Shown here piece by piece: positions 147-15,176 of a stretch of DNA of 64,000 nt. Positions within the stretch are counted from its first letter, which is position 1. The number at the start of each line of letters is the position of its first letter. The position numbers and the translations under genes were made by a program. The notes below the pieces were generated by a model. The model was given only the letters and a program-made list of their open reading frames with translations, did not search any database and was not told the DNA's origin. This stretch comes from Gemmobacter aquaticus (GTDB lineage Bacteria > Pseudomonadota > Alphaproteobacteria > Rhodobacterales > Rhodobacteraceae): NCBI RefSeq assembly GCF_007859075.1, contig NZ_VOAK01000020.1:1-64000 (forward strand), given 5' to 3'.

Positions 147-455
147 TCATCCGTCGGCAACGTCAAAGCCGCTGGCCCAGACAACCATCCCGGATGCGGT
201 GGCATGGCTTCGGAACATCGCGACATGGTCTGACGTGCGATGTGTTTCGACGGCAGCGGCATCGCGCCATTCCTCTTGGATGACCACGCGGGCGGGTGCG
301 CGGACTGACCTTAGCACCCGATAGGACATGCATCCGGCCTCGGCGCGCGATGCCGCGGCCAGACGGTGCACAGCCTGCAACCCCTCGGCCTCATGCCCGC
401 GGGGCAGGTCGATGATCGCGAGGACGAGAATGGGGAGAGGCGCTGCACCGTTCAC
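147..455 (-). CDS. Antibiotic biosynthesis monooxygenase (ABM)-fold protein, LsrG/YgiN-like
   Basis: A 102-residue protein of the dimeric alpha/beta-barrel ABM superfamily, which holds quinol monooxygenases (YgiN) and the AI-2-phosphate isomerase LsrG. The family core is visible: a first strand LVLAIID, the stretch EAGCMSYRVL, and EEWRDAAAVETHRTSDH with the W-x-D...H...H pattern. It starts at a GTG whose last bases overlap the TGA of the upstream GMC gene (GTGA overlap), so translation is probably coupled. It is the last gene of the ten-gene operon. Because the same operon carries LsrF-, LsrK- and LsrR-type proteins, an isomerase role on a phosphorylated dione or ketose is as likely as a monooxygenase role. 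The substrate is unknown. Confidence 0.75.
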   Translation of the reverse strand: MNGAAPLPILVLAIIDLPRGHEAEGLQAVHRLAAASRAEAGCMSYRVLRSVRAPARVVIQEEWRDAAAVETHRTSDHVAMFRSHATASGMVVWASGFDVADG

Positions 456-2056
456 GCCTTGCCCCGGATCAAGTCGGCGGCGCGCTCGGCGATCATCACG
501 ACCGGTGAGGCGGTATTGCCCGAAACGATGCGTGGCATCACCGAGGCGTCGACAATGCGCAACCCCGCCATGCCGTGAACCCGCAAGGCCGGATCGACGA
601 CCGCCATCGCATCATGGCCCATCCGGCAGGTGCCGACCGGGTGAAAGATCGTGGTGGCGATGTCGCCCGATTTCCGCAGCAGCGCCTCATCGGTGTCGAA
701 GCCCGGTCCGGGCAGCCATTCCTGCGGCGAATAGCGCGACAGGGCTTTGGCCGTCATGATCTTGCGGGCCTGCCGGATCGAGGCGAGGGCGATGCGTTTG
801 TCCTCTTCGGTCGACAGGTAATTCAGCCGAATCTCGGGCTGAACCTCTGGATCGGGACCCGTGGCGTGCACATGGCCCACCGAGGTCGGGCGCAGGTTGC
901 ACACCGAAACCGTGATGGCCGGAAACGGATGCAGTGGGTCACCCAGCCTGTCGGTCGACAGGGGCTGGACGTGATATTCAAGGTCGGGCGTGTCCTTCTC
1001 GGGTCCCGACCGGGTAAACATCCCGAACTGGCTGGGCGCCATGGCCATCGGCCCCGATCTGGTCAGCGCATATTGCGCGGCGATCCTTGCCTTGCCCCAC
1101 AGCGATCCGGCCATGTCGTTCAGGGTGCGAGCGCCGTGAACCTTGAACACAGTCCTGATCTGTAGATGGTCCTGCAGGTTCTCGCCCACGCCGGGCAGGG
1201 CATGAACCGTTGATACTCCGATCGCGGCATGGCGCGCGGGCTGGCCGATGCCAGACAGTTCCAGCAGCTTTGGACTGTTCACGGCGCCTGCCGAAAGGAT
1301 GACCTCGGCCGAGGCCATGGCATGGAAGGCCTGGTTTCCGACCCGCCATTCGACGCCAGTTGCCCGTCCGCCTTCGCAGCCTATGCGCGAGACGAGTGCA
1401 TGGGTCACGACGCGCAGGTTGCCTCGTCGCATTGCGGGGCGCAGGAAGCCGCGTGCGCTGCTCCAGCGCAGACCGCTTGACTGGTTGACCTCAAAGAAGC
1501 CTGACCCTTCGTTCGAGCCATCGTTGAAATCTGCCCTGGGAAGGATGCCGAATTCCCTTGCGCCCTCCTGCACAGCCCGCAGGATCTCCCAGCTCAACCT
1601 TTGCCGGGCCACCCGCCATTCGCCACCGGCACCATGCAGGTCACTTTCCCCGGCCCAGTGGCTTTCAGAACGGCGGAAATAGGGCAGCACATCTTCCCAG
1701 CCCCAGCCGACGTTCCCCAATTGCCGCCAGTGGTCATAGTCGGCGGCCTGGCCGCGCATGTAGATCATACCATTGACCGACGAGCATCCGCCCAGGACCT
1801 TGCCGCGTGGATAGGCCAGCGAGCGCCCGTTCAATCCGGGCTCGGCGGCTGTCTTCATCATCCAGTCGGTGCGCGGATTGCCGATGCAGTAAAGATAACC
1901 CACGGGTATCTGCACCCAGTGGTAGCGGTCCGAGCCGCCGGCCTCGAGCAGGAGCACGCGGTTCTTTCCGTCGGCGGTCAGCCGGTTGGCCAGAACGCAA
2001 CCCGCCGTTCCAGCCCCGATGATGATAAAGTCGTACTGGCCCTCGTCCTTCATCAT
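452..2056 (-). CDS. GMC-family FAD-dependent oxidoreductase (choline/alcohol dehydrogenase type)
   Basis: A 534-residue glucose-methanol-choline oxidoreductase. The N-terminal dinucleotide fold FIIIGAGTAGCVLANRL (GxGxxG at about 14-19), YPRGKVLGGCSSVNGMIYMRG and the C-terminal HPVGTCRMG (His about 472) with SGNTASP (Asn about 514) are family signatures; the last two supply the active-site His/Asn pair. I start at the ATG at 2056, which overlaps the kinase stop by 4 bases (ATGA). A start 20 codons further upstream is possible but would put non-homologous sequence in front of the fold. There is no signal peptide, so the enzyme should be cytoplasmic. It probably oxidises an alcohol related to the operon's substrate; which one cannot be read from the sequence. 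Confidence 0.85.
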   Translation of the reverse strand: MMKDEGQYDFIIIGAGTAGCVLANRLTADGKNRVLLLEAGGSDRYHWVQIPVGYLYCIGNPRTDWMMKTAAEPGLNGRSLAYPRGKVLGGCSSVNGMIYMRGQAADYDHWRQLGNVGWGWEDVLPYFRRSESHWAGESDLHGAGGEWRVARQRLSWEILRAVQEGAREFGILPRADFNDGSNEGSGFFEVNQSSGLRWSSARGFLRPAMRRGNLRVVTHALVSRIGCEGGRATGVEWRVGNQAFHAMASAEVILSAGAVNSPKLLELSGIGQPARHAAIGVSTVHALPGVGENLQDHLQIRTVFKVHGARTLNDMAGSLWGKARIAAQYALTRSGPMAMAPSQFGMFTRSGPEKDTPDLEYHVQPLSTDRLGDPLHPFPAITVSVCNLRPTSVGHVHATGPDPEVQPEIRLNYLSTEEDKRIALASIRQARKIMTAKALSRYSPQEWLPGPGFDTDEALLRKSGDIATTIFHPVGTCRMGHDAMAVVDPALRVHGMAGLRIVDASVMPRIVSGNTASPVVMIAERAADLIRGKA

Positions 2057-3558
2057 AGGCGCATCCCGCTGAGTTCTTCCCAGTAGGGGTCGAGCGCGGA
2101 TGCCAAGCGCGCCCAAAGCGAAAAGCGGCGGTCAAACACTGCCTTGCTCGACGGATCGGGGAGGACCTGTGCCCGGACCGAGGTCATCGCGAGGACGGCC
2201 TCGGCCTCGGTTGCAAAACGGCCGATCCCGACGACCGCTGCAATCGCGCCGCCAAGCGCGCCGGTTTCCTCGGCTTGGCCAAGCGTGACGGGCATGCCAA
2301 GGATATCTGCCATCATCTGCGGCCAGATGGCGGAGCGTGTTCCCCCACCCGAGAGGATCACCGTAGTGATCGTGGCGCCCGCTGACCGCAAGGTATCGAT
2401 GTGGCGGCGATGCTCGAAACAGACGCCCTCGAACAGAGCGCGCAGCACGTGGCCTTCATCATGCCATCCGGCAAGCCCGAAGAAGCCGCCGCGCTGATGG
2501 GCGCCATCGCGTCCGCCGTAGAGGAAGGGATGGAACATCGGATCATCCGGCGCAACCGCGCCTTGCCCGACAAGCCGGTTTACCAGACCAAAGGGATCAT
2601 CGTGGTGCCCACCCCGCTCGATAAAGCTGCGGACATACCATTCAAGATTGGCGGCCGAAGTCGCGCTGTTGTCCATGCTGGAATACTGGCCGGGACCAAA
2701 GGCCGTCGCCATGAACACGCGCGGGTCGTGCAAGGGGCGGTTGGTGAAAACCTGATTGATCGACCAGCTGCCCAGAACGATCGAAGCTGCGCCGGCCCCG
2801 ATGGCGCCAGAGCCGAGCGCCGAGGCGATGACGTCGAAATACCCCGCAATCACCGGAATACCGGGGCGCAGGCCGGTGACCTTTGCAGCCTCTGATGTGA
2901 CAAGGCCCACAGTGTCAGTCGGCTGGCAGAGCCGGGGCAGCAGATCCATGGCGTCATCCAGGCCATAAATCGCCATAAGCTCTGCGTCATACTGCGTCTC
3001 GGGCAGGCGCAGAAGCCCCGCGCCCGACATGTCGGAGACCTCGGTCGCCCGCGCGCCGGTGAGGTGCATCCCGATGATATCCTTCGCAAAACAAAGTGTT
3101 CCGGCGCGGGAATAGGTCTCGGGCTGGTTGGCCTTGAGCCAGGCCAGAAGCACCGGCGTTTGCGAGGGCCAGGGCTGCTGAAGGCAGATGTCGTAAAGCG
3201 CAGCCCCCCGTGTGGCAGCCAGATCGGTCGCAAGCTGCGCGGCACGGCTGTCGAGCGACTGGATCCCCAGAAGCGGCGCGCCTTGCTTGTCGAGAAGATA
3301 GAGGCCATTCCCGTGACCGGCGAGCCCGATGGCCACGATGCGTTCCGCCGCAACGCCAGCAGAGGCCAGACAACCAGAGATCGCAGCGCAAGCATTGCGC
3401 CACAATTCGGCCACCGGGCGCTCGACCATGCCGGGCGCGGGCTTGATCGTGGTTCCATCCACACCGTGCCGTGCAACTTGCCGCCCGGTTGCGTCAAAGA
3501 GCACAGCCTTGACGACCGTGTTGCCGATGTCGATGCCCAGGATCAGATCACCCTGCAT
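2053..3558 (-). CDS. FGGY-family carbohydrate kinase (L-xylulose/erythritol kinase-like)
   Basis: A 501-residue sugar/polyol kinase of the ASKHA fold. The phosphate-1 loop is LGIDIGNTVVKAVLFD near the N-terminus, the mid motif is GYFDVIASALGSGAIGAG, and the FGGY_C adenosine motif is LSGGGTRSAIWPQMMADIL. By eye it most resembles LyxK (L-xylulokinase) and EryA (erythritol kinase): note PGMVERPVAELW and FLYGGRDGAHQRGGFFGL. AI-2 kinase LsrK is also of this family. I use the ATG at 3558, where MQGDLILGIDIG begins the fold; it overlaps the aldolase end by 11 bases, and the upstream in-frame start at 3588 lies deep inside that gene. It should phosphorylate the imported sugar or polyol before oxidation by the GlpD-like enzyme and cleavage by the aldolase. 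Confidence 0.85.
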   Translation of the reverse strand: MQGDLILGIDIGNTVVKAVLFDATGRQVARHGVDGTTIKPAPGMVERPVAELWRNACAAISGCLASAGVAAERIVAIGLAGHGNGLYLLDKQGAPLLGIQSLDSRAAQLATDLAATRGAALYDICLQQPWPSQTPVLLAWLKANQPETYSRAGTLCFAKDIIGMHLTGARATEVSDMSGAGLLRLPETQYDAELMAIYGLDDAMDLLPRLCQPTDTVGLVTSEAAKVTGLRPGIPVIAGYFDVIASALGSGAIGAGAASIVLGSWSINQVFTNRPLHDPRVFMATAFGPGQYSSMDNSATSAANLEWYVRSFIERGGHHDDPFGLVNRLVGQGAVAPDDPMFHPFLYGGRDGAHQRGGFFGLAGWHDEGHVLRALFEGVCFEHRRHIDTLRSAGATITTVILSGGGTRSAIWPQMMADILGMPVTLGQAEETGALGGAIAAVVGIGRFATEAEAVLAMTSVRAQVLPDPSSKAVFDRRFSLWARLASALDPYWEELSGMRL

Positions 3559-4390
3559 GATTGTAGATCTCCCATGCCTCGGCGCCACTCGCGCGGTCGT
3601 GGATGATGGCCATCAGGGCTGCGACAACGGCCTGCGGGTTGGCGTGCTGATAGATGTTGCGACCATAGACCAGTCCGCGCGCACCCTGCGCGATCAAGGC
3701 TGCGGACTTCTCCAGCACAATGCGCAAGTCTTCCTTGCCGCCACCACGTGCCAGAACAGGAACCCGCGCGGCCTCAATGACCTTGTGAAAGTCGTCGGCG
3801 TTTGTCGTGGGGTCAGCCTTGATGATGTCCGCCCCCATTTCGGCTGCGACGCGCACAAGCGTCACGATCTTCTCTGCGTCACCATCCACCTGATACCCAC
3901 CGCGTATGTCATTGGGCAGCATGACCAGCGGCTCGATCATCAGCGGCATTCCGTATCTTGTGCAATCTGTCCGCACCCTTGCGATGTTGCGCACACATTG
4001 GCGGAACAGGTCAGGCTCGTCTGGCAGCATGAAGAGATTGACGACCACGCAGGCGGCGTCCATCTCGACTGCCGGCAGGACGGGATCGTCACATTGCAAC
4101 TCGGCCCACATGACGCGATGGCGTGACGCATTGTATGGATTGCCCATATCCAGACGCATGACGAGCGCCGGCTTTTCGTGGTCGGGTCGCGATTGCAGCA
4201 GATCGGCTTGCCCGTAGGACATCTGGATCGCGTCCGGGCCTGCATTGACCAGCATATCGACCACAAGCCCCATATCCTCCAGCCCGTTCAGGAAGCTTGG
4301 TTCGTTGCAGACGCCATGGTCAATGGCGACGTCAAGGCAGCCGCCACTCTTGAATAGCCGGTTCATTCTGGCCTTGCTGGAAATCTTCAT
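3548..4390 (-). CDS. Class I aldolase of the DhnA/LsrF family
   Basis: About 280 residues of a (beta/alpha)8-barrel Schiff-base aldolase (COG1830 type). Visible marks are LDVAIDHGV at the first strand, MPLMIEPLV in the middle, and GADIIKADPTTN, whose Lys is the expected Schiff-base residue (equivalent to the LsrF/FBP-aldolase lysine), then VPVLARGGGK and GARGLVYGRNIYQ for phosphate binding. Relatives are fructose-bisphosphate aldolase class I and LsrF, the thiolase acting on phosphorylated AI-2. I use the ATG at 4390, one base after the glpD-like stop; a GTG at 4399 overlapping that stop is an alternative. Together with kinase and dehydrogenase it probably cleaves a phosphorylated keto-sugar to C2/C3 units. 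Confidence 0.8.
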   Translation of the reverse strand: MKISSKARMNRLFKSGGCLDVAIDHGVCNEPSFLNGLEDMGLVVDMLVNAGPDAIQMSYGQADLLQSRPDHEKPALVMRLDMGNPYNASRHRVMWAELQCDDPVLPAVEMDAACVVVNLFMLPDEPDLFRQCVRNIARVRTDCTRYGMPLMIEPLVMLPNDIRGGYQVDGDAEKIVTLVRVAAEMGADIIKADPTTNADDFHKVIEAARVPVLARGGGKEDLRIVLEKSAALIAQGARGLVYGRNIYQHANPQAVVAALMAIIHDRASGAEAWEIYNHAG

Positions 4391-4391
4391 G

Positions 4392-6074
4392 TCATGCACC
4401 CGTTTGAGGGGTCAGGCTGACCCCATGGAAAGTGTTGAGGTCGTCGAGGAAGCGCGCCGTTTCCTGTGCGCGCTCGGTGTCGGACCAGCCAAGTTCTTGC
4501 GCCATGATCCGGCTGACGGCGTCAATCAGCGGCAACGACAGCTCACCCCGGATCGCGCAGGGGCTGCGGCGTTGAAGGACATCAGCCAGACGAAGGGCGT
4601 GCTCTTCCCGCATGAAGCGGATCACCTCGCGCCCGGTCAGTTGGGTTCCGGGCAGCGCTGCATCCGGCCCCTCTGCACAGAACCGCGCGACGCTGAATGC
4701 GCCCGCGCCATAGAGATCGACCAGATGGTTGGCGCGCTCGGCGCCCAGCTTGAATTCAGCAGCCAGTCGATCCCGGGTGGTTGCGTCGAAACCTGCACCA
4801 CCCCCGATGCGCAGGTCGCGCGTATTGTGCAGGCGGTTCCGGCCCAACTCCATCAGAGCGAGATCCGCAGCCTCTTCGGCGAAGGCCCGGTAGGTAGTCC
4901 ATTTACCGCCGATCATGCCGATCTGCGGGATGGGACCGTCAAGCCGCCGCAGAGAATGGCCACGCGAGATGCGCCCGGTAAAGTCGGCATCGCTGAACGG
5001 AAGTGGGCGAATGCCGGAATAGCTGTAGACAATCTGTTCCGGTGTGATCGGGATGGTCGGGAACAGGGCGCTCAGTGCGCCGAGGATATAGTCACGCTCT
5101 TCGGTCGTGCAGGCCGTGCGTCCGGGGGCGGATACGCGCAAGTCCGTTGATCCGGCAAGCACGCGACCGAGGTAGGGAAAAACGATGCAGACCCGCCCGT
5201 CGCCATGTTCAAAATATGCCATGTGGCCGCCAAGCGCCTGCATCAGCGCCGGATTGTCGAGGATCAGGTGCGATCCCTTGGTGCCCGACACCATGCGCTT
5301 CTGCAGCCTCGCGCCAAGCGTTTCGGCAGCCTGATCCACCCAGGCCCCTGTGGCGTTGACGATGACCTTTGCAGTGACCTCGATCCGGGCGCCGGTGGGG
5401 GCGTCGCGCAGCAGCAGCCGTCCGCCCTCCATCCGTATCTCGGCATGGTTCAGCGCAATCGCCTGCCGTGACGCGGTGATGGCGTCGTTGATCAGTTCGA
5501 TGCCCAGCCGTTCAGGATATGTGATCCAGGCATCGTGATAGGTCGCTGCGGCCAGTATGCCTGGGGGAAGGGCGGGCCAGCGCGCATGCGCCGCGCCGCG
5601 CCCCATGAAACGATGCCGGGGAAGCTTGCGGTGTCGACCGGTGATGGCATCGTAGAGGACGAGGCCGATCTTGATGGGCAGAGCCCCACGAGGTCGGGGA
5701 CGACCGGTAAACCCGAACAGGCCAAGCGCCGCGTTGGCAATACCTGAAAACACATGCGATATCGGAATGACCGTCGGCAAGGGGCGCACCATATGAGGGG
5801 CGTTTTCAAGCAGGCGGTCGCGCTCCTGAAGGCTCTCTCGCACCAGTCCGACCTCGGCATTTTCCAGGTAGCGCAAACCGCCGTGGATCATGCGCGAGGG
5901 TGCCGATGAGCAGCCGGAACAGAAATCGCCCTTTTCGACCAGAAGCACCCGCAGCCCCTGAAGTGCGAGGTCCCGGAATACGCCGATCCCGTTGATCCCG
6001 CCGCCGACCACGACCGCGTCAAAGGCGGGGTCGGCCGTGATCAGGTCCAGTTTGTTTTGCCGGCAGATTGGCAT
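4392..6074 (-). CDS. FAD-dependent glycerol-3-phosphate dehydrogenase family (GlpD/EryB-like)
   Basis: A 560-residue flavoprotein of the GlpD/DAO family. The FAD fold is AVVVGGGINGIGVFRDLALQG (GxGxxG at 24-29); the second signature is MIHGGLRYLE, and a C-terminal DAO_C segment ends the protein. GlpD oxidises glycerol-3-phosphate to DHAP with electrons to the quinone pool; the paralogue EryB oxidises erythritol-phosphate in Brucella. No glycerol transporter or glpR is nearby, and the gene sits with an EryA/LyxK-like kinase and a SorC regulator (EryD is also SorC-type), so a polyol-phosphate other than glycerol-3-phosphate is my preferred substrate. There is a Shine-Dalgarno-like CGGAGA 5 bases before the ATG. 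A perfect inverted repeat GGGGTCA-GGC-TGACCCC (4408-4424) lies inside its last codons. Confidence 0.85.
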   Translation of the reverse strand: MPICRQNKLDLITADPAFDAVVVGGGINGIGVFRDLALQGLRVLLVEKGDFCSGCSSAPSRMIHGGLRYLENAEVGLVRESLQERDRLLENAPHMVRPLPTVIPISHVFSGIANAALGLFGFTGRPRPRGALPIKIGLVLYDAITGRHRKLPRHRFMGRGAAHARWPALPPGILAAATYHDAWITYPERLGIELINDAITASRQAIALNHAEIRMEGGRLLLRDAPTGARIEVTAKVIVNATGAWVDQAAETLGARLQKRMVSGTKGSHLILDNPALMQALGGHMAYFEHGDGRVCIVFPYLGRVLAGSTDLRVSAPGRTACTTEERDYILGALSALFPTIPITPEQIVYSYSGIRPLPFSDADFTGRISRGHSLRRLDGPIPQIGMIGGKWTTYRAFAEEAADLALMELGRNRLHNTRDLRIGGGAGFDATTRDRLAAEFKLGAERANHLVDLYGAGAFSVARFCAEGPDAALPGTQLTGREVIRFMREEHALRLADVLQRRSPCAIRGELSLPLIDAVSRIMAQELGWSDTERAQETARFLDDLNTFHGVSLTPQTGA

Positions 6075-6134
6075 GACGTCTCCGTTTGCGGAGGCACGCC
6101 CCGCAGCATTGAGATCCGGATCGGGTGTCGAAGT

Positions 6135-7127
6135 TTAGCTACGGGTCATTGGCAGGTTAGCGGCGACAGCCTGGGTGATGGCGGCGACCTCGCTATCGCT
6201 GAGCTGCAGTTCGCCGGCCCGCGCATTCTCTCGCGCTTGTTCGGGATTGCGCGCGCCGCAAAGCGCGAAGGTCAGTCCCGGCTGGGCAAGCGTCCAGGCG
6301 ATAACGATCTGGGCAGGGCTTGCGCCATGTCCCTCGGCGATGGGTCTAACGGTCTTCATCACCTCTTCCACCCGAAGCCGGTTCTCGACCGAAAAGCGCG
6401 GATCATTCTTGCGCTGATCGTCACCGGTGAAGACACGGTCTGCCGGGATGCGCCCCGACAGAAGGCCAAGGGACAGAACCGAATACCCCATGACCGAGAT
6501 ACCGGATTCTCGGCAGACCGGCAGATGGCTCTCCTCGATGCGGCGGGACAGCATTGAATACTCTTCCTGAACCGCCGCGATTCCGCCGGCCTGCTGATAG
6601 GCGTTCAGATCCGCGGGACTGGTGTTTGAGGCAGCAAAGGCAAGGATCTTTCCCTCGGCCTGCAACGCTTTCAGGGTGTCTACCGTCTCGGCGATCGGGG
6701 TTGACGGGTCCTGCCAGTGGGTGATGTAGAGGTCGATCCGATCGGTTCGCAGACGGCGCAGGCTCAGTTCGACCTCATGTCGGATGGCCGCCCCGGAAAG
6801 GTCGCGGTGTACCGGCAGATCGGCCTGCGTGAAGAAATAGGGCCCGCGCTGCTCATGCCAGACAAGGCCGCATTTGGTGGCCAGAACCACCCCGTCGCGC
6901 CGCCCGTCAATGGCGCGGCCAACCACCTCTTCGGCATGGCCCAGACCATAGGCGGGGGCGGTGTCGATCAGTGTGATCCCTGCGTCCAGGCCTGCGCGGA
7001 TGGCGTCCTCTGCGGCAGCGTCATCCGTGCCGCCCCACATCCACCCACCGATCGCCCAAGTGCCCAGCCCCACGGCCGAAGCCTGAATGCCGGTGCCGCC
7101 GATTTCCCTTTTCAGCATTTGGCTCAT
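6135..7127 (-). CDS. Aldo/keto reductase
   Basis: A 330-residue NADPH-dependent AKR with the usual (beta/alpha)8 features: LGTWAIGG at the N-terminus, the catalytic tetrad in LIDTAPAYGLGHAE (Asp, Tyr), VLATKCG (Lys) and DLYITHWQDP (His), and the cofactor motif GARNPEQARENA near the C-terminus. It resembles the YajO / general-stress-protein-69 type that reduces sugar aldehydes and ketones. The start ATG overlaps the stop of the SorC-family regulator by 4 bases (ATGA). A role in interconverting the operon's sugar and polyol is inferred only from position. Confidence 0.85.
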   Translation of the reverse strand: MSQMLKREIGGTGIQASAVGLGTWAIGGWMWGGTDDAAAEDAIRAGLDAGITLIDTAPAYGLGHAEEVVGRAIDGRRDGVVLATKCGLVWHEQRGPYFFTQADLPVHRDLSGAAIRHEVELSLRRLRTDRIDLYITHWQDPSTPIAETVDTLKALQAEGKILAFAASNTSPADLNAYQQAGGIAAVQEEYSMLSRRIEESHLPVCRESGISVMGYSVLSLGLLSGRIPADRVFTGDDQRKNDPRFSVENRLRVEEVMKTVRPIAEGHGASPAQIVIAWTLAQPGLTFALCGARNPEQARENARAGELQLSDSEVAAITQAVAANLPMTRS

Positions 7128-8095
7128 GCCGGCTCTCCCTTGATTTCCAGAACGTCTTTTGCGGTCTCCTCATCGGTGACCAGTGTCGAGATGTATCCGC
7201 CCCGCAGAACGGACCGCAGCGGCCCGACCTTGTCTTCGCCCGCAGCCACAGCGATGACGCGGTCGCAATTGCGCAGCTCATCGGGGCGCAGGGCGACAAG
7301 GCGCTGGTTCAGCGCAAACCTTGCAACCTGACCGCGATCATGCACCAGATGGCCCAGGAATTCGGCCATGACCCCAAGTCCGGGAAGCATGGCCCGGTCC
7401 GGGGCCGAGAGCGGGTGCAAGTCAAAGTAGGACGACCCCGGCGTCGTGATCGAGCCGACGCCGACAAGGCAGGTGGTGGCGCGGCGCCCAAGATCCAGAA
7501 CCTCTTTCACCGCGCCCATCTGCATCAGCATGTCACGCTGCTCGGCGCGCTCGGCAAAGAGCGGGGCGTGAAGTTGCAGCGACTGCCCGCCCAGCCGTTC
7601 TGCCAGGCGCGAGGCCAGATGATTGACGTCCGTGTGGTATTTGCCCTGCACCCCGCCTGTCAGCGGAACCACCTGCACGTCGATCGGGCGTTCGACAGTG
7701 AGCGCATCGACCACCGCAGCTACGGCCTTCCCGCCCGAAATCCCCAAGACATCTCCGTCGCGCAACGTCTCTGTCAGGTGCGCGGCCGCTGCCAGACCCA
7801 CCTGCGACAGGCGGGTGTTGTCGTTCTCTGAAACTGTCGGCGAAACGATTGCTGCTTTCACAAGGCCGGTAGCGATCAGTTGCTTTTCAAGCTCCATCAA
7901 ACGCTGGAAGGGCGTCTCGATGCTGATCTTGACCATGCCGGTACGGCGGGCCAGTGCGATGATCCGATTGACCTTGGATGTCGAGAGGTTCATCTCGTCG
8001 GCGATTTCCGCCTGTTTGTGCCCCTCGATGAAGTGGCGCACGAGAACCGCATAGGTCTGGCGCATAATTGCAAAGTCATTGGTCCCGTCAGTCAT
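7124..8095 (-). CDS. SorC/DeoR-family sugar-responsive transcriptional regulator
   Basis: A 323-residue regulator with an N-terminal helix-turn-helix (about residues 27-53, KQAEIADEMNLSTSKVNRI) and a long C-terminal SorC sugar-binding domain (for example DGDVLGISGGKAVAAVVDAL and VQVVPLTGGVQ). The family includes SorC, LsrR (AI-2 phosphate), DeoR-like regulators and EryD (erythritol). The gene lies inside the operon, between permease and aldo/keto reductase, with ATGA overlaps on both sides, so it is probably auto-regulated with the whole operon. The natural effector would be the phosphorylated substrate made by the FGGY kinase. The likely operator is the 14-bp palindrome at 11812-11825. Confidence 0.85.
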   Translation of the reverse strand: MTDGTNDFAIMRQTYAVLVRHFIEGHKQAEIADEMNLSTSKVNRIIALARRTGMVKISIETPFQRLMELEKQLIATGLVKAAIVSPTVSENDNTRLSQVGLAAAAHLTETLRDGDVLGISGGKAVAAVVDALTVERPIDVQVVPLTGGVQGKYHTDVNHLASRLAERLGGQSLQLHAPLFAERAEQRDMLMQMGAVKEVLDLGRRATTCLVGVGSITTPGSSYFDLHPLSAPDRAMLPGLGVMAEFLGHLVHDRGQVARFALNQRLVALRPDELRNCDRVIAVAAGEDKVGPLRSVLRGGYISTLVTDEETAKDVLEIKGEPA

Positions 8096-9078
8096 GCTCG
8101 TCCTCCCGCGGCGCGGCGCTTCACGAGGTAATGGTCAAAGGTCACGGCGGCCAGAAGGATGGAGCCGCGGATAATGTCCTGCCAGTAGACCGAAACGTTG
8201 AGCAGTGCGAGAGACGAGGAGACGAGCGACAGAAGCACCGCGCCGAGGATCGCGCCGAGGATCGAGCCTTTGCCGCCCGAGAGGCTTGCCCCGCCGATCA
8301 CTGCTGCGGCGATCACGTTCAGCTCCATTCCAACCCCAAAGGTCGGTTGTGCTGATCCGAAGCGGGCCATGTAGATGATCCCGGCCACACCGCAAAGCGT
8401 TGAGCACAGCATGGTCGTCAGGAACAGGACACGCTTGGTGCGAATGCCCGAATAGGCGGCGGCGCGTTCATTGCTTCCCGTGTAGAAAACCTTCCGGAAG
8501 GCCGTTGTGCGCCGTAAAAGGAAGTCAAAGACGACAACGGTGACCAGAAAGACCACGATTGCGACGGGAATGGGGCCGATGGAGCCGATACCGATCCACT
8601 TGAAACTGTCGGGAAGTTCAAAGAGCCCAAGGGGACGCCCACCTGTGCCCAGCAGGCATAGTCCCCGCGCGATGACCATTGCGGCCAGCGTGACGATGAA
8701 GTGGTGCAACCCCACGACCGTCACGAAGAAGCCCATGATTGCGCCTATCCCCGCACAGGCGGCAATGGCGATCAGCGAGGCAATCCAGGGGTTGACCCCG
8801 GCAAGGAACAAAAGCCCCGCGATCACCATTGCAAGCGCCGTGACAGATCCCACCGAAAGATCAATCCCGCCGGAAATCAGCAGGATCGTCATGCCGACCA
8901 CCACGATGGCCTCGACCGAGAACGCCATCGCCATGGCGCGCATGTTCGTCCATGTCAGAAAATGCGGCGAGGCGAATGTCATGGCCAGAAAGAGCACCAT
9001 GATGATCAGCACAAGCCCGGTTTCACGCGCCCCGAAGAGTCGGGAAAGCAGCGATTGATGTTGAGTGGTCGCAATCAT
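8092..9078 (-). CDS. CUT2-type sugar ABC transporter permease (RbsC/LsrC-like)
   Basis: A 328-residue integral membrane protein of the BPD_transp_2 family, with about eight to ten hydrophobic segments (for example [21 protein letters not shown]) and the family motifs [19 protein letters not shown] and [20 protein letters not shown] use the ATG at 9078 (MIATTQHQ), two bases after the ATPase stop; codons upstream of it read as arginine-rich non-membrane sequence from the overlapping gene. Only one permease gene is present, so it should homodimerise as RbsC does, unlike lsr operons, which encode two permeases. Confidence 0.9.
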
Positions 9079-9080
9079 CC

Positions 9081-10601
9081 TCAGGTCCTTTTCCCTGCGC
9101 CTGCACCGGGTGCGGCAAGGGTCATGATGTTCTTTTCGGTCAGGTCTTCGCCGGACAACTCTCCCGTCAGATAGCCCTCGCTGACGACAAGGACGCGGTC
9201 GCACAGGCCGATCAGTTCGGGCATCTCGGACGAGATAACCACGATGCCCACGCCCTGTTCGGCGAGGTTGCGCAGGATCGCATGGATTTCAGCCTTGGCG
9301 CCGACGTCGACACCGCGGGTCGGCTCGTCCAGAAAGATCAATCGGGGGTGGACGGCCAGAAGCTTGGCGAGTGCGACCTTCTGCTGGTTGCCGCCCGAGA
9401 GGCTGGCCACACGGTGGGCCATGCTTGCAGCTTTGAGGCGCAGGGTTTCCCCGATCTCCTGCGCCATCCCGGCCTCGCGGCGCTTGTCGATCACGCCAAA
9501 CCTGCCCGCAACGCGCCGCAGGTCAAGCGCCGAGACATTGGCCGCGATCGAGAGGTCAAGAAACACGCCATCTCCCTTGCGGTCCTCTGACAGGTAGACC
9601 ACGCCTTTGGAGATGCAGTCGGCATAGTCCCTGAGGGTGACAGGCTCCCCTTCAAGGTGAACGCAGGCTTTGGCATCCCCCTCAAGCCGCGTGATCCCGC
9701 GGGCGATCTCGGTGCGTCCCGCGCCGATCAGACCCCCGAAGCCCAGGATCTCGCCCCGGTAGACCGAGAAGGACACATCCCTGAAACAGTGCCCAGAGGC
9801 GTTCTCGACGCGCAGAATCTCGGCCTGCCGAGGGCCTGATAGCTTGGGGGGGTAGAGTGTATCGAGCTTGCGACCCACCATGGCATTGACCACATCGGCC
9901 GGTGTCACGTCGGATGTATCGGCCGTCATCACGTGCTGACCGTCGCGCATCACCGTAACGCGCTGACAATTCTCAAAGATTTCGGCCATGCGGTGGGAGA
10001 TGTAGATGATGCCGATGCCCCGTGCCGCCAGATCACGCATGATCGAGAACAGCTTTTGCGCCTCGTGTTCGGTCAGTGCAGCCGTCGGTTCGTCAAAAAT
10101 GAGGATCCGGCAGTTCAAGGTCAGCGCCTTGGCGATCTCGACCAGTTGTTGCTGCGAGATGGAAAGCGCGCCCGCCGGAAGTCTGGGGTCAATGTAGGCA
10201 AGGGGGGCGAGGACTTCTTGTGCGGCGGTCACGAGTGCATGCCCCTCCATCAGCCTGCGCCGCGACTGTGCGGTCCGGGCCATGAAGATATTCTCGGCCA
10301 CCGAAATCTCGGGGCACAGCGCGATTTCCTGATGGACGAAACCGATGCCCAGCCCCTGCGCCACAGCGGGGCTGTCGACGCTCACGGGCTGACCGTCGAT
10401 CAGGATCTCTCCGGCATCAGGCTGAAGGATGCCATCGACAATGTTCATCAGTGTGGACTTCCCGGCACCGTTCTCGCCGGCAAGTGCATGGATTTCACCG
10501 GCCCGAAGCTCCAGTTGCCCCGAGCGTAGCGCACGGACCGCCCCGAAAGACTTGGAGATATCGCGAAGCTGCAGCAGGGGCTCGGGTGACATGATGACCA
10601 T
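9081..10601 (-). CDS. CUT2-type sugar ABC transporter ATP-binding protein (two ATPase domains)
   Basis: A 506-residue tandem ATPase of the RbsA/MglA/LsrA type. Domain 1 has Walker A GENGAGKST (42-50), signature LSISQQQLVEIAKAL and Walker B ILIFDEPTAALT. Domain 2 has the degenerate Walker A GGLIGAGRTE usual for this family, signature LSGGNQQKVALAKLL and Walker B LIFLDEPTRGVD. It energises import by the neighbouring permease and binding protein. The start is at 10601 or, three codons later, 10592; neither has a strong ribosome-binding site. The gene follows the binding-protein gene by 68 bases, a gap often used to set a higher level of binding protein. Confidence 0.92.
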   Translation of the reverse strand: MVIMSPEPLLQLRDISKSFGAVRALRSGQLELRAGEIHALAGENGAGKSTLMNIVDGILQPDAGEILIDGQPVSVDSPAVAQGLGIGFVHQEIALCPEISVAENIFMARTAQSRRRLMEGHALVTAAQEVLAPLAYIDPRLPAGALSISQQQLVEIAKALTLNCRILIFDEPTAALTEHEAQKLFSIMRDLAARGIGIIYISHRMAEIFENCQRVTVMRDGQHVMTADTSDVTPADVVNAMVGRKLDTLYPPKLSGPRQAEILRVENASGHCFRDVSFSVYRGEILGFGGLIGAGRTEIARGITRLEGDAKACVHLEGEPVTLRDYADCISKGVVYLSEDRKGDGVFLDLSIAANVSALDLRRVAGRFGVIDKRREAGMAQEIGETLRLKAASMAHRVASLSGGNQQKVALAKLLAVHPRLIFLDEPTRGVDVGAKAEIHAILRNLAEQGVGIVVISSEMPELIGLCDRVLVVSEGYLTGELSGEDLTEKNIMTLAAPGAGAGKRT

Positions 10602-10669
10602 TGGTTGATGTGAGATGGGCGACTGGTCGGACGAGGGTCCCCGCTGCTGTCCGCAGCGGGGCTGCGGAT

Positions 10670-11680
10670 TCAGTTCCGGCCTTCCATGTACTTCTCGAGA
10701 ACAAAGCTCTCGGCGTTCTCTTTGGTGATCACGGCAAAGCCGTTGTCGACGAAGGGGATCTGCATCGGGTTGTAGCCTGCGGTCTTGTAGTCATTGAACG
10801 GGTCGATTGCGTCGGGATGTGCCCCGAGGAAGGTGTTCATGAACCCGACAAACCCTTGAATCCCTTGGTTCGGGTTCAGCGCCATGTGGATGTTGCCGGC
10901 CTTGATCTCTTCCAGCGTGGTGGGCGAGATGTCGGCGTGGATGATCATGGGCTTCTTGCTGGCGGCCTTGGCAGCGGCAACCGCCCCTTCGGCCGAACCC
11001 GACTCGGGGATCCAGAGCGCCGCAAGGTTGGGGTTGGCCTGAAGCATGGCAGACACGGCGGTAAACGCTGCGTTCGGGTCCTGGTTAGTGGCCTGCCGCC
11101 CGACGAGCTTCATGTTCGGGTAGTTCTTCTCCATATAGGCGATCAGCGCCGTTACGCGCAGGTCGTGGTTCGACTGGCCTGGGTTTTCCAGCACCGCATA
11201 TTCCGCGCTGTCGCCCACGGTCTTGACGATCTCTTCGGCGGCGAATTTCGCCTCGGCCAGATTGTCAGAGGTGATGTAGGCGGTCCGCTTCGACTTGGGC
11301 GAGTCTGCAGCAAAGGTCGTGACCGAGATCCCCGCATCGACCGCGCGGTTGATCGGATCGATGAAGGGGTCCGCCTGCATCGGGTGAAGCAGGATGCCCT
11401 TCGGGCTGGTTACCAGATCCTGCTCGAACGAGGCGATCTGCTTGGTGATGTCGTAGTCGGGCGTGCCCGAGAACACGGCCTCGCAGCCAAAAGCCTCGGC
11501 GGCCTGCTTGAAGCCCTGGAACACCGGAACCCAATAGGGGTGCCCCATGACCATCACGTTCATCACATAGGTTTCGCCCGGTTCACAGCGCAGTGTGTCC
11601 TGTGCAAGGGCAGCCTGACTTGCCCCCAAAATCGCGATGGCGGAGGTGCCGCCGAGCACAAGTGCCTTCAGGTTGTTCAT
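10670..11680 (-). CDS. Periplasmic sugar-binding protein of a CUT2 ABC transporter
   Basis: A 336-residue secreted binding protein. The signal peptide MNNLKALVLGGTSAIAILGA ends with SQAALA and is predicted to be cut before Q27. The mature protein is a type I periplasmic-binding fold (HPYWVPVFQGFKQAAEAFGC, ILLHPMQADPFIDPINRAVDAG). The start at 11680 is fixed by a strong Shine-Dalgarno GGGAGGAAC. It is the first gene of the operon. Compared from memory with LsrB, the residues that contact AI-2 are not obviously kept (SNHD where LsrB has DQ; IPESGSAEG in place of the P-x-A segment), so I do not call this an AI-2 receptor. The ligand is presumably a small polyol or sugar. Confidence 0.88.
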   Translation of the reverse strand: MNNLKALVLGGTSAIAILGASQAALAQDTLRCEPGETYVMNVMVMGHPYWVPVFQGFKQAAEAFGCEAVFSGTPDYDITKQIASFEQDLVTSPKGILLHPMQADPFIDPINRAVDAGISVTTFAADSPKSKRTAYITSDNLAEAKFAAEEIVKTVGDSAEYAVLENPGQSNHDLRVTALIAYMEKNYPNMKLVGRQATNQDPNAAFTAVSAMLQANPNLAALWIPESGSAEGAVAAAKAASKKPMIIHADISPTTLEEIKAGNIHMALNPNQGIQGFVGFMNTFLGAHPDAIDPFNDYKTAGYNPMQIPFVDNGFAVITKENAESFVLEKYMEGRN

Positions 11681-11789
11681 CTGTTCCTCCCGTTTTTGAG
11701 GGGCTTGGCGCCCATTCTGCAATTTGTCGCGCGTCTCGCAATAGATTGCAGAATCGACATAGCAGTCGAAGAAGCGTTGGGTCAAAGCC

Positions 11790-11825
11790 ATTCTATTTTT
11801 CTATCACAAAGTGAAATTAATTTCA
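11790..11825 (-). promoter_or_regulatory. Promoter and palindromic operator of the sugar/polyol operon
   Basis: Upstream of the binding-protein gene lies a perfect 14-bp palindrome, TGAAATTAATTTCA (11812-11825), in an AT-rich patch unlike the surrounding GC-rich DNA. On the minus strand it is followed about 16 bases later by a -10-like TAGAAT (11795-11790), so a protein bound to the palindrome would cover the -35 area. It is the natural site for the operon's own SorC-family regulator. A transcript from here would have a leader of about 100 bases. The 11681-11996 stretch otherwise holds only the terminator listed next. Confidence 0.6.
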
Positions 11826-11857: not shown

Positions 11858-11883
11858 AAAAAAGGCCGCCCGAAGGCAGCCTT
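11858..11883 (-). terminator. Rho-independent terminator of the permease/thioredoxin operon
   Basis: Read on the minus strand, AAGGCTGCC-TTCG-GGCGGCCTT forms a 9-bp stem (one G·T-type mismatch) with a UUCG tetraloop, followed by a run of T. It lies about 115 bases past the thioredoxin stop and just before the next operon's operator. Confidence 0.8.
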
Positions 11884-12236: not shown

Positions 12237-13235
12237 TCAGACGAAAAGCGGGGTGATGGCGTTGAACAGAAAGCCGATGGCAAGGATGCCAAGGGTGACA
12301 ACGCCGACGAAGGTGAACAGAAGGGGCAGTCGCACCACCCGTTTCAGCATGATCAACGAGGGCAGCGAGAGGGCCGTGACGGCCATCATGAAGGCGAGAA
12401 CCGTGCCAAGACCCACGCCCTTGGCGACCAGCGCCTCGGCAATCGGAAGCGTGCCAAAGATATCGGCGTAGATCGGAATACCGATCAGTGTCGCAACCGG
12501 AACCGCCCACCACTTGTCCTGCCCCAGAAGGGTGGCGATCGCCTCTGCCGGGATCCAGTTATGGATCGCCGCGCCAATGGCGACGCCCACCAGCACATAG
12601 GGCCAGACGCGGTGGATGATGTCGCCGACCTGATCGCGGGCATAGGCCAGACGCTCGGTGCGGGTCATGCGCGGGATCTCGGCGCCAACTCGGGCGGCGC
12701 GGGCGAATGTGGCCACCTGATCTTCCATCTGCAGCCGCCCGATCACCGTGCCGCCAATGACGGCGACCACAAGCCCTGTCGCAACATAGGTCAAGGCGAT
12801 CGGCCAGCTGAAGATGGAGGCCAGCAGGATCACGGATGCCAGATCGACCAACGGGGACGAGATCAGAAAGGAAAACGTCACGGCCAGCGGCAATCCGGCT
12901 GCCGTGAACCCGATGAACAGCGGGATCGACGAACAGGAACAGAAGGGGGTCAGTGTGCCCAGAAGTGCGGCGAGGATGTTCGCACCAATCCCCGAGCGCC
13001 CTCCGAGGATCGCGCGGGTCCGCTCGGGCGGGAAGTGGCTTTGGACATATGAGATCGCAAAGATCAGGACCGACAGCAGGATGAAGATCTTGATCACATC
13101 ATAGACAAAGAACTGCACCGATCCGCCAATGCGCGAAGCGGGGTCGAGTCCAAGGCTGGTGATGCCCGCCCGGACCAGATCATCCAGCCAGACCATGCGA
13201 AGGAACTGGTCGTTCATCCCAGAAAAGACGTTCAT
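12237..13235 (-). CDS. UPF0718 / ArsP_1-family membrane permease
   Basis: A 332-residue protein with about eight membrane segments. The family signature TPFCSCSSIPLFIGFTAAGL is at about 96-115 with Cys99 and Cys101; PIYADIFGTLPIAEAL and MAVTALSLPSLIML come near the C-terminus. Characterised members (ArsP) export trivalent organoarsenicals through their cysteines; many others have no known substrate. It is divergent from arsR, with a FNR-type box and an ArsR-type operator/promoter in the 223 bases between them. I do not give it the symbol arsP because substrate cannot be decided from sequence. Confidence 0.82.
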   Translation of the reverse strand: MNVFSGMNDQFLRMVWLDDLVRAGITSLGLDPASRIGGSVQFFVYDVIKIFILLSVLIFAISYVQSHFPPERTRAILGGRSGIGANILAALLGTLTPFCSCSSIPLFIGFTAAGLPLAVTFSFLISSPLVDLASVILLASIFSWPIALTYVATGLVVAVIGGTVIGRLQMEDQVATFARAARVGAEIPRMTRTERLAYARDQVGDIIHRVWPYVLVGVAIGAAIHNWIPAEAIATLLGQDKWWAVPVATLIGIPIYADIFGTLPIAEALVAKGVGLGTVLAFMMAVTALSLPSLIMLKRVVRLPLLFTFVGVVTLGILAIGFLFNAITPLFV

Positions 13236-13351
13236 GCAGTCTCCGGTTTGGCCAGAGCATCCTGTTCGGGGCGCGCGAATATGCGGCTGGTAGCCATCTT
13301 TTGCACCTTTTTCGGTCAGGTGAAGCTGCGCATGTCTCTGACGTCTCGGCG

Positions 13352-13365
13352 TTGATCTGCGTCAA
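13352..13365. promoter_or_regulatory. FNR/FnrL-type box between permease and arsR
   Basis: TTGATCTGCGTCAA matches the FNR consensus TTGAT-N4-ATCAA in 9 of 10 defined positions, and is a form frequently seen at FnrL targets in Rhodobacter relatives. It is centred about 123 bases from the permease start and 100 bases from the arsR start, so either divergent operon could be oxygen-responsive. I could not find a well-spaced -10 for a class II site on the permease side. Confidence 0.6.
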
Positions 13366-13408
13366 CCGGGCCACGGGAATATGCACCGATGTCTGGATGG
13401 CATCCCCC

Positions 13409-13438
13409 TTGACCTTTAATTTCCATAAAACTAGAAAT
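13409..13438 (+). promoter_or_regulatory. arsR promoter with overlapping inverted repeat
   Basis: A -35 TTGACC (13409-13414) and -10 TAGAAA (13432-13437) are 17 bases apart. An inverted repeat ATTTC-N10-GAAAT (13419-13438) fills the spacer and -10, the place an ArsR-type repressor normally binds. The expected start of transcription is about 15 bases before the arsR ATG. Confidence 0.55.
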
Positions 13439-13458
13439 ATCGAAAATGGAGTCGGCGC

Positions 13459-13761
13459 ATGGATATTGATCAGGCAGCCTCACGACTTGCCGCGCTTGGC
13501 AATCCGACGCGGTTGCGGCTTTATCGGCTGCTCGTCCGGGCAGGTGACGCAGGGCTTTCGATGGGGCGAATTCAAGAGAGTCTGGGGATTCCCGGCTCGA
13601 CCCTTTCGCATCATTGCCGTGCGCTTGTGCAGGTCGATCTCATCCATCAGGAGAGGGTTGGCACATCGTTGATTTGCCGCACCAACTATCCCGTCATGCG
13701 CGGGCTGATCGACGATCTGCAAGCGGAATGCTGTGTGGATGCCTGTTGCACGGCGCCGTGA
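13459..13761 (+). CDS. ArsR/SmtB-family transcriptional regulator
   Basis: A 100-residue winged-helix repressor: ALGNPTRLRLYRLL begins the DNA-binding domain, and GSTLSHHCRALVQVDLI is the recognition-helix region. Possible metalloid ligands are Cys53 in the recognition helix area, Cys73 and two vicinal pairs at the C-terminus (Cys91-92, Cys96-97), consistent with As(III)- or Sb(III)-type sensing although the exact binding set is unknown. It is the first gene of an operon with the flavoprotein and the MFS transporter. The start is supported by an upstream GGAG. It probably represses its own promoter and perhaps the divergent permease. Confidence 0.88.
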   Translation: MDIDQAASRLAALGNPTRLRLYRLLVRAGDAGLSMGRIQESLGIPGSTLSHHCRALVQVDLIHQERVGTSLICRTNYPVMRGLIDDLQAECCVDACCTAP

Positions 13762-13811
13762 CGCAGGCGTTCTGGTGCGAAATATCATTGTTTTCATCAC
13801 AGGGGGACGGG

Positions 13812-15176
13812 ATGGAAAAGGTCGTGGCAATTCTCGGGGCTGGGCCGGTTGGCCTCGCGGCGGCAGCCCATGTGCTTGAGCGGGGGATGCAGCCGCTGAT
13901 CCTTGAACAGGGCGATGAGGTTGGACATGCGGTGCGGGAATGGGGCCATGTGCCGATGTTTTCAAACTGGCGCTACAACATCGATGCGGCAGCGGCGCGC
14001 CGGCTTCTGGCGACCGGCTGGGCGCCGCCCGACGATGGGGCACATCCGACAGGTGCCGATCTGGTCGATCACTACCTCGTGCCGCTCGGCCTGTCCCTGC
14101 GGCCTTGGTTGCGTCTGGGTCGGCGGGTGGTGGCTGTGTCCCGTGACGGGGTGGATAAGGTCAAGGACGCGGGGCGCGCAGCGGCTGCGTTCGTGATCGA
14201 GACAGAGGGCGCCGCAGGGGCAGAGCGCCATCGCGCCGATGCGGTCATCGATACGACCGGCACCTGGTTTCAGCCCAACCCCGGCGGTGCCGGGCGCCCC
14301 GTTCCCGGTGAGGTGGGGCACCCGGCCATCCGCTATGGAATGCCCGATGTTCTGGGCCGTGATCGTGCGCGCTATGCAGGCAAGCGCGTTGCCGTTTTGG
14401 GAGGTGGTCATTCCGCGATCGGAACGCTGATTGCCTTGTCGGATTTGCCGGGTGCGTCCCCGATCTGGCTGTGCAGGGCTGCGGGCATCGCGCGGGCCTT
14501 GGGCGGGGGGGCCGCCGATCAGCTTTCTGCGCGCGGCGCATTAGGCAGCGATACAGCCCGGCTGGTTCAAAGCGGGCGCGTCCGGCTGGAAACCGGATTT
14601 CACCTGTCGGCGATCGATGACGTGACGCCGCTTGCCGCCATTTCGACCGACGGCCGCCGCGTCGAGGTGGACGAACTGATCATTGCGACAGGCTTTCGGC
14701 CCGATCTTTCGATCCTGCGCGAACTGCGCGTGACGCTGGATCCGGCGCTGGAATCTCCGCCCGCGCTGGCCCCGCTTATTGATCCCAACCTGCATTCCTG
14801 TGGCACCGTCCGACCCCACGGCGCGGCAGAGCTTGCCCATCCTGAGCCGGGATTCTACATCGCCGGCATGAAGTCCTATGGCCGTGCGCCGACCTTCCTT
14901 TTGGCGACGGGGCATGAACAGGTCCGCTCCATCGTCGCGGCCATTGCCGGTGATCACGCTGCCGCCGCGCGTGTTGAGCTTGTGTTGCCGGAAACTGGTG
15001 TTTGCTCTGGCTCCGGACCACAGGTCGCAGATGTCGGGTCCGGCTGTTGCGGTGGGCCTGCCGTGGCGCACGCCGATGCCTGCTGCGCCGCAGATGAGAC
15101 TGCACGGGACAACGGCGCCTCCGGGTACGGATGTGCCGGGACGGCCGGACCTGCCAAGACCCCGGCATGCTGCTGA
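13812..15176 (+). CDS. ArsO-like FAD/NAD(P)-binding oxidoreductase with cysteine-rich tail
   Basis: A 454-residue flavoprotein. FAD is bound by ILGAGPVGLAAAAH (9-14) and NAD(P) by a second dinucleotide fold at VLGGGHSAIG (196-204); IIATGFRPDLSIL is the typical return motif. It resembles the putative flavin monooxygenases (ArsO) found in ars operons. The last 59 residues are unusual: glycine/alanine-rich with eight cysteines (398, 412, 413, 424, 425, 441, 453, 454), six of them in vicinal pairs, the last pair being the C-terminus. Such pairs bind trivalent arsenic or other thiophilic ions. I use the ATG at 13812 after GGGACGGG; upstream in-frame codons overlap arsR and are not homologous. Reaction and substrate are not proven. 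Confidence 0.75.
   Translation: MEKVVAILGAGPVGLAAAAHVLERGMQPLILEQGDEVGHAVREWGHVPMFSNWRYNIDAAAARRLLATGWAPPDDGAHPTGADLVDHYLVPLGLSLRPWLRLGRRVVAVSRDGVDKVKDAGRAAAAFVIETEGAAGAERHRADAVIDTTGTWFQPNPGGAGRPVPGEVGHPAIRYGMPDVLGRDRARYAGKRVAVLGGGHSAIGTLIALSDLPGASPIWLCRAAGIARALGGGAADQLSARGALGSDTARLVQSGRVRLETGFHLSAIDDVTPLAAISTDGRRVEVDELIIATGFRPDLSILRELRVTLDPALESPPALAPLIDPNLHSCGTVRPHGAAELAHPEPGFYIAGMKSYGRAPTFLLATGHEQVRSIVAAIAGDHAAAARVELVLPETGVCSGSGPQVADVGSGCCGGPAVAHADACCAADETARDNGASGYGCAGTAGPAKTPACC

Follow-up and report, generated by a model that had tools for sequence, protein, structure and literature searches.

A ten-gene operon on the minus strand of a Gemmobacter aquaticus contig (NZ_VOAK01000020.1, assembly GCF_007859075.1) probably serves to take up a small sugar alcohol, or a sugar that the cell converts to a sugar alcohol, and to break this down to a glycolysis intermediate and a small aldehyde. 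The window analyzed here is the stretch of 64,000 nucleotides at positions 1 to 64,000 of this contig, and the operon lies at its beginning. The operon is real and conserved and, to the extent searched, uncharacterized; known parts are newly arranged in it, and it does not amount to a novel type of system. The route as a whole, in which a polyol would be turned into a polyol phosphate, then a ketose-1-phosphate, and finally dihydroxyacetone phosphate (DHAP) plus an aldehyde under SorC control, is in our view moderately likely.

Open reading frame (ORF) analysis with chosen starts gave ten minus-strand ORFs in a row, from the start of the first gene at 11686 to the stop of the last at 147; seven of the nine junctions are overlaps of 4–11 bases, and the other two are gaps of 60–68 bases. 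The families of all ten genes were checked with NCBIfam and Pfam. The first three encode a transporter whose CUT2 make-up is complete by Pfam, namely a periplasmic sugar-binding protein (SBP, 10670–11686; Peripla_BP_4, with a signal peptide judged by eye), a sugar ABC transporter ATPase (9081–10601), and a BPD_transp_2 permease (8092–9084), the last two identified by NCBIfam, Pfam, and tblastn. They are followed by a SorC/DeoR-type sugar-binding regulator (SORC, 7124–8095; Pfam Sugar-bind), an aldo/keto reductase (AKR, 6135–7127; NCBIfam and Pfam), a GlpD-like dehydrogenase dependent on flavin adenine dinucleotide (FAD) (GLPD, 4392–6074; DAO and DAO_C domains, with a tree), a class I DhnA-type aldolase of the DeoC/LacD, DhnA/LsrF-like kind (ALD, 3548–4399; NCBIfam, Pfam, and alignment), an FGGY kinase (KIN, 2053–3558; NCBIfam, Pfam, and a tree), an oxidoreductase resembling GMC/choline dehydrogenases (GMC, 452–2059; NCBIfam and Pfam), which is usual but not invariable in related loci, and a small accessory dimeric-barrel protein (ABM, 147–455; Pfam ABM, 61 bits). 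The first-pass annotation, made from the letters alone, had proposed these families and a single minus-strand operon spanning 147–11825. The families were borne out by NCBIfam and Pfam, and the operon by the ORF layout and the conserved gene order, whereas the coding part begins at about 11686, not 11825. Upstream of the operon is a weak terminator-like hairpin on the minus strand (11862–11883; 7 such sites in the region compared with 8.3 in shuffles), and beyond its ABM end a convergent plus-strand frame stops at base 125. With the hairpin on one side and the convergent frame on the other, the ten genes seem to make up a complete unit. A Pfam scan of the 40 visible residues of the convergent frame gave no match.

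Forty loci were compared. They are genome contigs matched with KIN as the query, so KIN is present in 40/40 by construction, and the presence of the other genes was scored by tblastn. Most are from Alphaproteobacteria, with one record from Actinomycetota (Desertimonas, L040). The order SORC-AKR-GLPD-ALD-KIN was kept in 38 of the 40, indicating that the neighborhood is not chance; the two exceptions were L015, a contig of 3.9 kb, and L036, which lacks ALD. GLPD was found in all 40 loci and ALD in 39, while AKR and SORC were each missed once (39/40), both times on the short contig L015. A relative of SBP was present in 30 loci; two were cut by contig ends and eight had another transporter, with two permeases and a different binding protein (L025, L026, L032, L033, L037, L038, L039, and L044). 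These eight keep the same catabolic core, and several of them have a zinc-type alcohol dehydrogenase between the kinase and GMC; the binding protein of L026 had no match in PDB better than E 3e-7. GMC was found in 34/40 loci and was absent from L011, L020, L028, and L043 although the sequence there reads past KIN; it could not be judged in L015 and L027. As a diagnostic gene GMC was ruled out, with a relative at E <= 1e-150 in 184 of the 295 genomes sampled from the window's family. An ABM gene stood behind GMC in only five loci (L008, L025, L026, L032, and L038), and in the plasmid locus L061 a Dabb gene took that place. Most of the ten-family neighborhood described in the first-pass annotation belongs to a conserved cassette, with GMC less regular and ABM accessory, and an isomerization by ABM as a regular pathway step is not supported.

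The core order was also found on the plasmids p42b of Rhizobium etli, pRL12 of R. johnstonii, and pSymB of Sinorhizobium meliloti, and on plasmids of Shinella, Alloyangia, Roseateles, and Parasedimentitalea; a Photobacterium plasmid locus has the core without GMC. Relatives of ALD at E <= 1e-40 occurred in 193 plasmid records, 180 of them at 60–80% identity. Within the genus, no orthologue was found in ten other genomes, one of which has a relative at 54% and another a marginal match, and the aldolase was detected at E <= 1e-120 in 15 of the 295 family genomes, the window's own included. Such a patchy distribution is as expected for a laterally moving catabolic cassette. When the ORFs flanking the loci were clustered (> 40% identity, 60% coverage), nothing that could serve as a substrate clue appeared: apart from the genes of the operon, those of the alternative transporter, and a single alcohol dehydrogenase, the clusters were antisense frames or, in 3–4 loci, a small number of sense families. 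L014, L018, and L036 have in common a further sugar ABC transporter (ATPase and binding-protein-like gene) at about 14.5–19 kb, downstream of the operon. In R. etli the operon adjoins thi genes; none of the other annotated records examined shows them next to it. In L036 (Actibacterium mucosum), where ALD is missing and its neighbors are present, another GlpD-like gene (34% identical to GLPD) lies just upstream on the opposite strand. The GMC annotation of Alloyangia pacifica (L049, 5143–6215) comes in two pieces, several operon genes are split in L046, and the permease is split in L082 (6354–7353); decay or sequencing error is possible in these cases.

The kinase and the dehydrogenase were placed by trees holding 14 of 47 KIN and 15 of 51 GLPD rows, hand-picked for spread from a pool without sequences that fell below 40% identity, had an unusual length, or contained X. 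KIN holds both FGGY domains (Pfam), and the alignment puts an Asp at the position of XylB D233, which we take to be the catalytic Asp of FGGY kinases. Among the characterized kinases compared, Escherichia coli LyxK was nearest, at 268 bits against 149 for EryA, 147 for LsrK, and 122 for XylB, and a set of 19 rows included LyxK at 98/98, without EryA or LsrK. LyxK is closer to KIN than EryA and LsrK are, the two other kinases that the first-pass annotation had put forward for phylogeny, yet it shares only 33% identity with KIN and is joined by a long branch. GLPD of the operon and of the sister modules described below was set apart at 100/100 from GlpD, EryB, and the other GlpD-like protein of the genome, while EryB grouped with ordinary GlpD (100/100). 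The window's GLPD keeps the E. coli GlpD residues R54, Y55, H233, R317, and R332, presumably those of the substrate pocket, as do 10 aligned members from the operon and sister modules, except for K in place of R54 in two non-operon paralogues. With these residues kept, a phosphorylated substrate would be expected for GLPD. EryA, EryB, and EryD of R. johnstonii, references identified as such from gene order (one EryA and one EryB in the trees), are 29%, 32%, and 29% identical to KIN, GLPD, and SORC, respectively. Judged from the sequences by the descent of its kinase and dehydrogenase, the operon is neither lsr nor ery, and the "erythritol-type kinase/dehydrogenase pair" of the first-pass annotation does not hold, with EryB sitting among GlpD and the kinase in the LyxK set.

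ALD matches Pfam DeoC at 184 bits and has a TIM-barrel fold with a Schiff-base lysine (Lys193 in alignment numbering, its role assigned by alignment), which was invariant in all 31 aligned rows, these being 31 of the 40 rows available. Its AlphaFold model (predicted local distance difference test, pLDDT, 85; predicted template modeling score, pTM, 0.88) gave Foldseek matches to MJ0400, LsrF, an archaeal fructose bisphosphate aldolase, and a tagatose-bisphosphate aldolase (PDB entries 2qjg, 3glc, 1ojx, and 5f2g), so that its best fold matches are aldolases handling DHAP or fructose bisphosphate, together with LsrF. The Schiff-base Lys is common to ALD and LsrF. On the strand after the GMP motif, ALD reads IEPLV and LsrF reads AVTGV; the ALD segment aligns with IIEPVV of YihT, the aldolase of sulfofructose-1-phosphate, a ketose-1-phosphate. 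We favor retro-aldol cleavage as the likely reaction of ALD rather than thiolysis dependent on coenzyme A (CoA).

For SBP, the AlphaFold model (pLDDT 83.5, pTM 0.78) had the arabinose-binding protein AraP (6sw4) as its best Foldseek match, and the nearest solved structures were AraP, CbpA, and 3g1w. Many SBP residues were invariant across 27 aligned sequences (of 30), which suggests that the binding proteins of the main transporter class share a single ligand. With KIN in the LyxK set and SBP nearest to AraP, there is a weak pointer to a C5 polyol or sugar. Solved near relatives of AKR include GSP69 and IolS.

Upstream of the SBP gene lies the conserved palindrome TGAAATnnATTTCA; we read the perfect palindrome at 11812–11825, TGAAATTAATTTCA, as a putative SorC operator. 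The comparison covered 39 upstream regions, from the window and from 38 loci that have an SBP orthologue, some of them near relatives; the best site had no mismatch in 17, one in 13, two in 8, and three in 1. At one mismatch or fewer the site was present in 30/39 regions, compared with 0.01 expected from mononucleotide shuffles, the expectation being 0.25 regions at two mismatches and 2.8 at three. Among the eight loci that have the alternative transporter, seven had a site within two mismatches in their first 600 bases, and L039 had one with three, a count made without a shuffle comparison. The only perfect copy of TGAAATNNATTTCA in the window's genome is this site, and one other place matches with one mismatch. 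The regulator itself scored 157 bits with the NCBIfam model for DeoR (cut-off 420) and 113 bits with that for LsrR (cut-off 486).

In family types, the operon resembles E. coli lsr, with a CUT2 transporter, a SorC-type regulator, an FGGY kinase, a DhnA-type enzyme, and an ABM protein. Unlike lsr, it has one permease instead of two, its ABM is not conserved, and its GLPD, AKR, and GMC have no lsr counterpart. Its scores lie far below the NCBIfam equivalog cut-offs: LsrK 178/528, LsrR 113/486, LsrF 106/297, LsrG 24/135, LsrA 435/586, LsrC 140/388, LsrD 112/500, and LsrB 39/384 (bits/cut-off). These low scores agree with the first-pass annotation that autoinducer-2 (AI-2) is not the likely substrate. 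With the ery locus of rhizobia and Brucella, the operon shares an FGGY kinase, a GlpD-superfamily dehydrogenase, a SorC regulator, and a CUT2 transporter, but the kinase and dehydrogenase belong to different clades, and the operon has an aldolase where ery has isomerases. As had been noticed earlier for EryC, no isomerase of the EryC, EryH, or EryI families is present among the ten genes (NCBIfam, Pfam). A sugar kinase, an aldolase yielding DHAP plus an aldehyde, and an aldehyde reductase are features of the rhamnose/fucose and sulfoquinovose pathways too, whereas their ketose-1-phosphate comes from an isomerase and that of the operon would come from oxidation of a polyol phosphate. In GlpK-GlpD glycerol catabolism, a kinase followed by an FAD dehydrogenase likewise leads to a keto phosphate and the pocket residues are the same; in the operon an aldolase step comes in addition. 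On contig C25 of the genome, a further GlpD-like gene (L076) lies about 7 kb from an FGGY gene (L069, GlpK-like by eye).

Sister modules were found elsewhere. A plasmid of Sagittula sp. P11 carries an operon (L057, 650–6947, with L077, 6253–9722) that has a related transporter and whose proteins are 40% (SORC), 45% (GLPD), 47% (KIN), and, for the permease over 210 residues, 70% identical to those of the window. In place of ALD and AKR it has an LsrF, at 500 bits above the equivalog cut-off of 297, together with a class II aldolase; the latter is similar to one half, the aldolase, of RhaD-type bifunctional proteins but stays below the cut-offs of those models. Here nature has combined an AI-2 enzyme with a sugar pathway. 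Beside the ery-type locus of R. johnstonii, pRL12 holds a module (RL_RS33895–RL_RS33915; L056, 6608–13034) with a GlpD of the operon clade (44%), an FGGY kinase (35%), and a class II fructose bisphosphate aldolase, which differs from the operon in having a DeoR regulator, a psicose-epimerase-like protein (157 bits against a cut-off of 300), this class II aldolase, and two permeases. To our knowledge, no function is known for it. ALD paralogues adjoin PfkB kinases in Thioclava (L054, 52%), together with a gene of the D-lyxose isomerase family, and in L081 (51%), which has three PfkB genes. Two more ALD paralogues are those of L093 and L094. The common thread of these modules and paralogues would be a ketose phosphate split to DHAP.

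From gene content, conservation, catalytic residues, clades, and the conserved palindrome, we infer each reaction, the order of the steps, the electron acceptor, and the regulation as follows. The operon would be a substrate-inducible catabolic unit, in which the CUT2 ABC transporter takes up either a small polyol or a sugar from which the cell makes a polyol. The LyxK-like KIN would place a phosphate onto a terminal hydroxyl, and GLPD would oxidize the neighboring carbinol to give a 2-ketose-1-phosphate, passing the electrons to the quinone pool. ALD would cleave this product to a short hydroxyaldehyde and to DHAP, a substrate of glycolysis; a C5 ketose-1-phosphate would yield DHAP plus glycolaldehyde. 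AKR would most likely reduce the hydroxyaldehyde, its second choice being to make the polyol from an imported sugar, while GMC may offer an optional further oxidation and ABM may be an optional helper. SORC would respond to a phosphorylated intermediate, and its site of action would be the palindrome ahead of the SBP gene. The gene families fit the import, phosphorylation, FAD-linked oxidation, and aldol cleavage supposed in the first-pass annotation, but not its isomerization by ABM; an isomerase would not be needed, because the ketose-1-phosphate would be cleaved directly. As the substrate, a pentitol such as L-arabitol or xylitol is our leading, though doubtful, candidate, and a 6-deoxyhexitol or hexitol would be the next guess.

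Several points weigh against this route. LyxK phosphorylates a ketose, not a polyol, so a polyol phosphate may not be what KIN makes; the AKR step could come at the start of the route rather than at its end. The profile match of ALD to YihT was weak (18% probability, compared with 98.8% for LsrF by hhalign), and the likeness to YihT comes down to the single IEPLV segment, since the profile favors LsrF strongly. ALD does not keep the Tyr of archaeal fructose bisphosphate aldolase, in L036 the neighbor genes are present but ALD is absent, and SBP and AraP are only 26% identical. As for the trees, a single clade of the operon rows was recovered in just 30% of bootstrap trees for KIN and in 0% for GLPD, since the sister-module rows fall among them or stay unresolved, and several kinase references sit on very long branches. 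In Sagittula, SBP and the permease are split over frames, and because of this its operon may be damaged.

If AKR acted first, a rare aldose or ketose would be imported and reduced to the polyol, which would then follow the same route, with the aldehyde left to GMC or to enzymes elsewhere. We consider this order rather unlikely. AKR matches the other core enzymes in conservation (39/40), unlike GMC (34/40), SBP resembles sugar-binding proteins, and many CUT2 binding proteins bind cyclic sugars; on the other hand, NAD(P)H would be spent while a quinone-level electron pair is recovered, the Sagittula operon has no AKR, and in the rhamnose/fucose and sulfoquinovose pathways the reductase, annotated there as FucO and YihU, reportedly acts last, on the aldehyde. 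More remote still, a route resembling that of AI-2 seems improbable to us. Here an imported ketopentose would be phosphorylated, GLPD would oxidize C4 to give a 2,4-diketone 5-phosphate, a hydroxylated analogue of the LsrF substrate, and a thiolase cleavage would yield DHAP and acyl-CoA. By its product name LyxK phosphorylates L-xylulose, ALD falls in the LsrF superfamily with a profile score far nearer LsrF than YihT, and the Sagittula operon carries an LsrF above the equivalog cut-off (500 vs 297 bits). Yet ALD reaches only 106 of 297 bits in the LsrF model and differs at the IEPLV strand, and the LsrF of Sagittula may act otherwise, with a class II aldolase also present. The weak YihT match and the absence of AKR from Sagittula led us to weigh the polyol route and its AKR-first variant slightly down and the thiolase route slightly up.

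That the substrate is erythritol or another tetritol, as in the ery locus, is very improbable. The FGGY kinase, GlpD-superfamily enzyme, and SorC regulator are common to both loci, but EryA, EryB, and EryD are distant from KIN, GLPD, and SORC at the identities given above, EryB groups with GlpD, no isomerase family is found among the ten genes, R. johnstonii pRL12 has both this operon and an ery-type locus, and a retro-aldol cleavage of tetrulose-1-phosphate would be expected to yield formaldehyde.

Taking the polyol route together with the sister modules, it is plausible, though short of an even call, that the operon belongs to an undescribed Embden-Meyerhof-like sugar-alcohol route with a quinone-linked dehydrogenase of a new clade. 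Its modules would be exchangeable, sharing the kinase and dehydrogenase and differing in their aldolases (DhnA here, class II plus LsrF in Sagittula, perhaps a fructose bisphosphate aldolase type in Rhizobium), and the LsrF-type enzymes of AI-2 would have arisen from or been recruited into such pathways. An experimental assignment of this operon was not found in the open-licence literature, where many journals are missing, and the first-pass term "undescribed" stands only as far as that literature. In S. meliloti, we place the orthologue of SBP at SMb20504, from the gene order in L053 and from the excerpts seen of two papers, which list SMb20504 as a sugar-binding protein (PMC12542648) and SMb20505 as tfxG (PMC4053727). 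In the accessible parts of the open-licence papers, SMb20504 and its neighbor appear in tables only. Psicose was considered as the substrate and rejected: the psicose uptake predicted in the accessible part of PMC4961836 is for SMb20484–20488, another operon nearby, and not for the orthologue inferred at SMb20504. PMC4581636 and PMC11302038, as far as their text was available, concern the SMb20484–20488 operon and not the orthologous one, and the available parts of PMC3454389, PMC4207669, PMC12239276, and PMC5852556 hold nothing on this operon.

Next to the operon, at 12237–16330 of the window, is a metal/arsenic-type cluster with a permease related to efflux proteins of the SaoE/SO_0444 type, an ArsR-family regulator, an ArsO-like flavoprotein, and an ArsK-like transporter of the major facilitator superfamily, in which only the ArsR subfamily model was above its cut-off.

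The operon is carried by replicons of well-studied legume symbionts and is scattered in other Alphaproteobacteria. It would also be a warning that clusters of this kind should not be called lsr or ery from family type alone. If the polyol route is true, the operon would add a polyol pathway and would account for genes whose present names go no further than "glycerol-3-phosphate dehydrogenase/oxidase," "FGGY kinase," and "class I fructose-bisphosphate aldolase."

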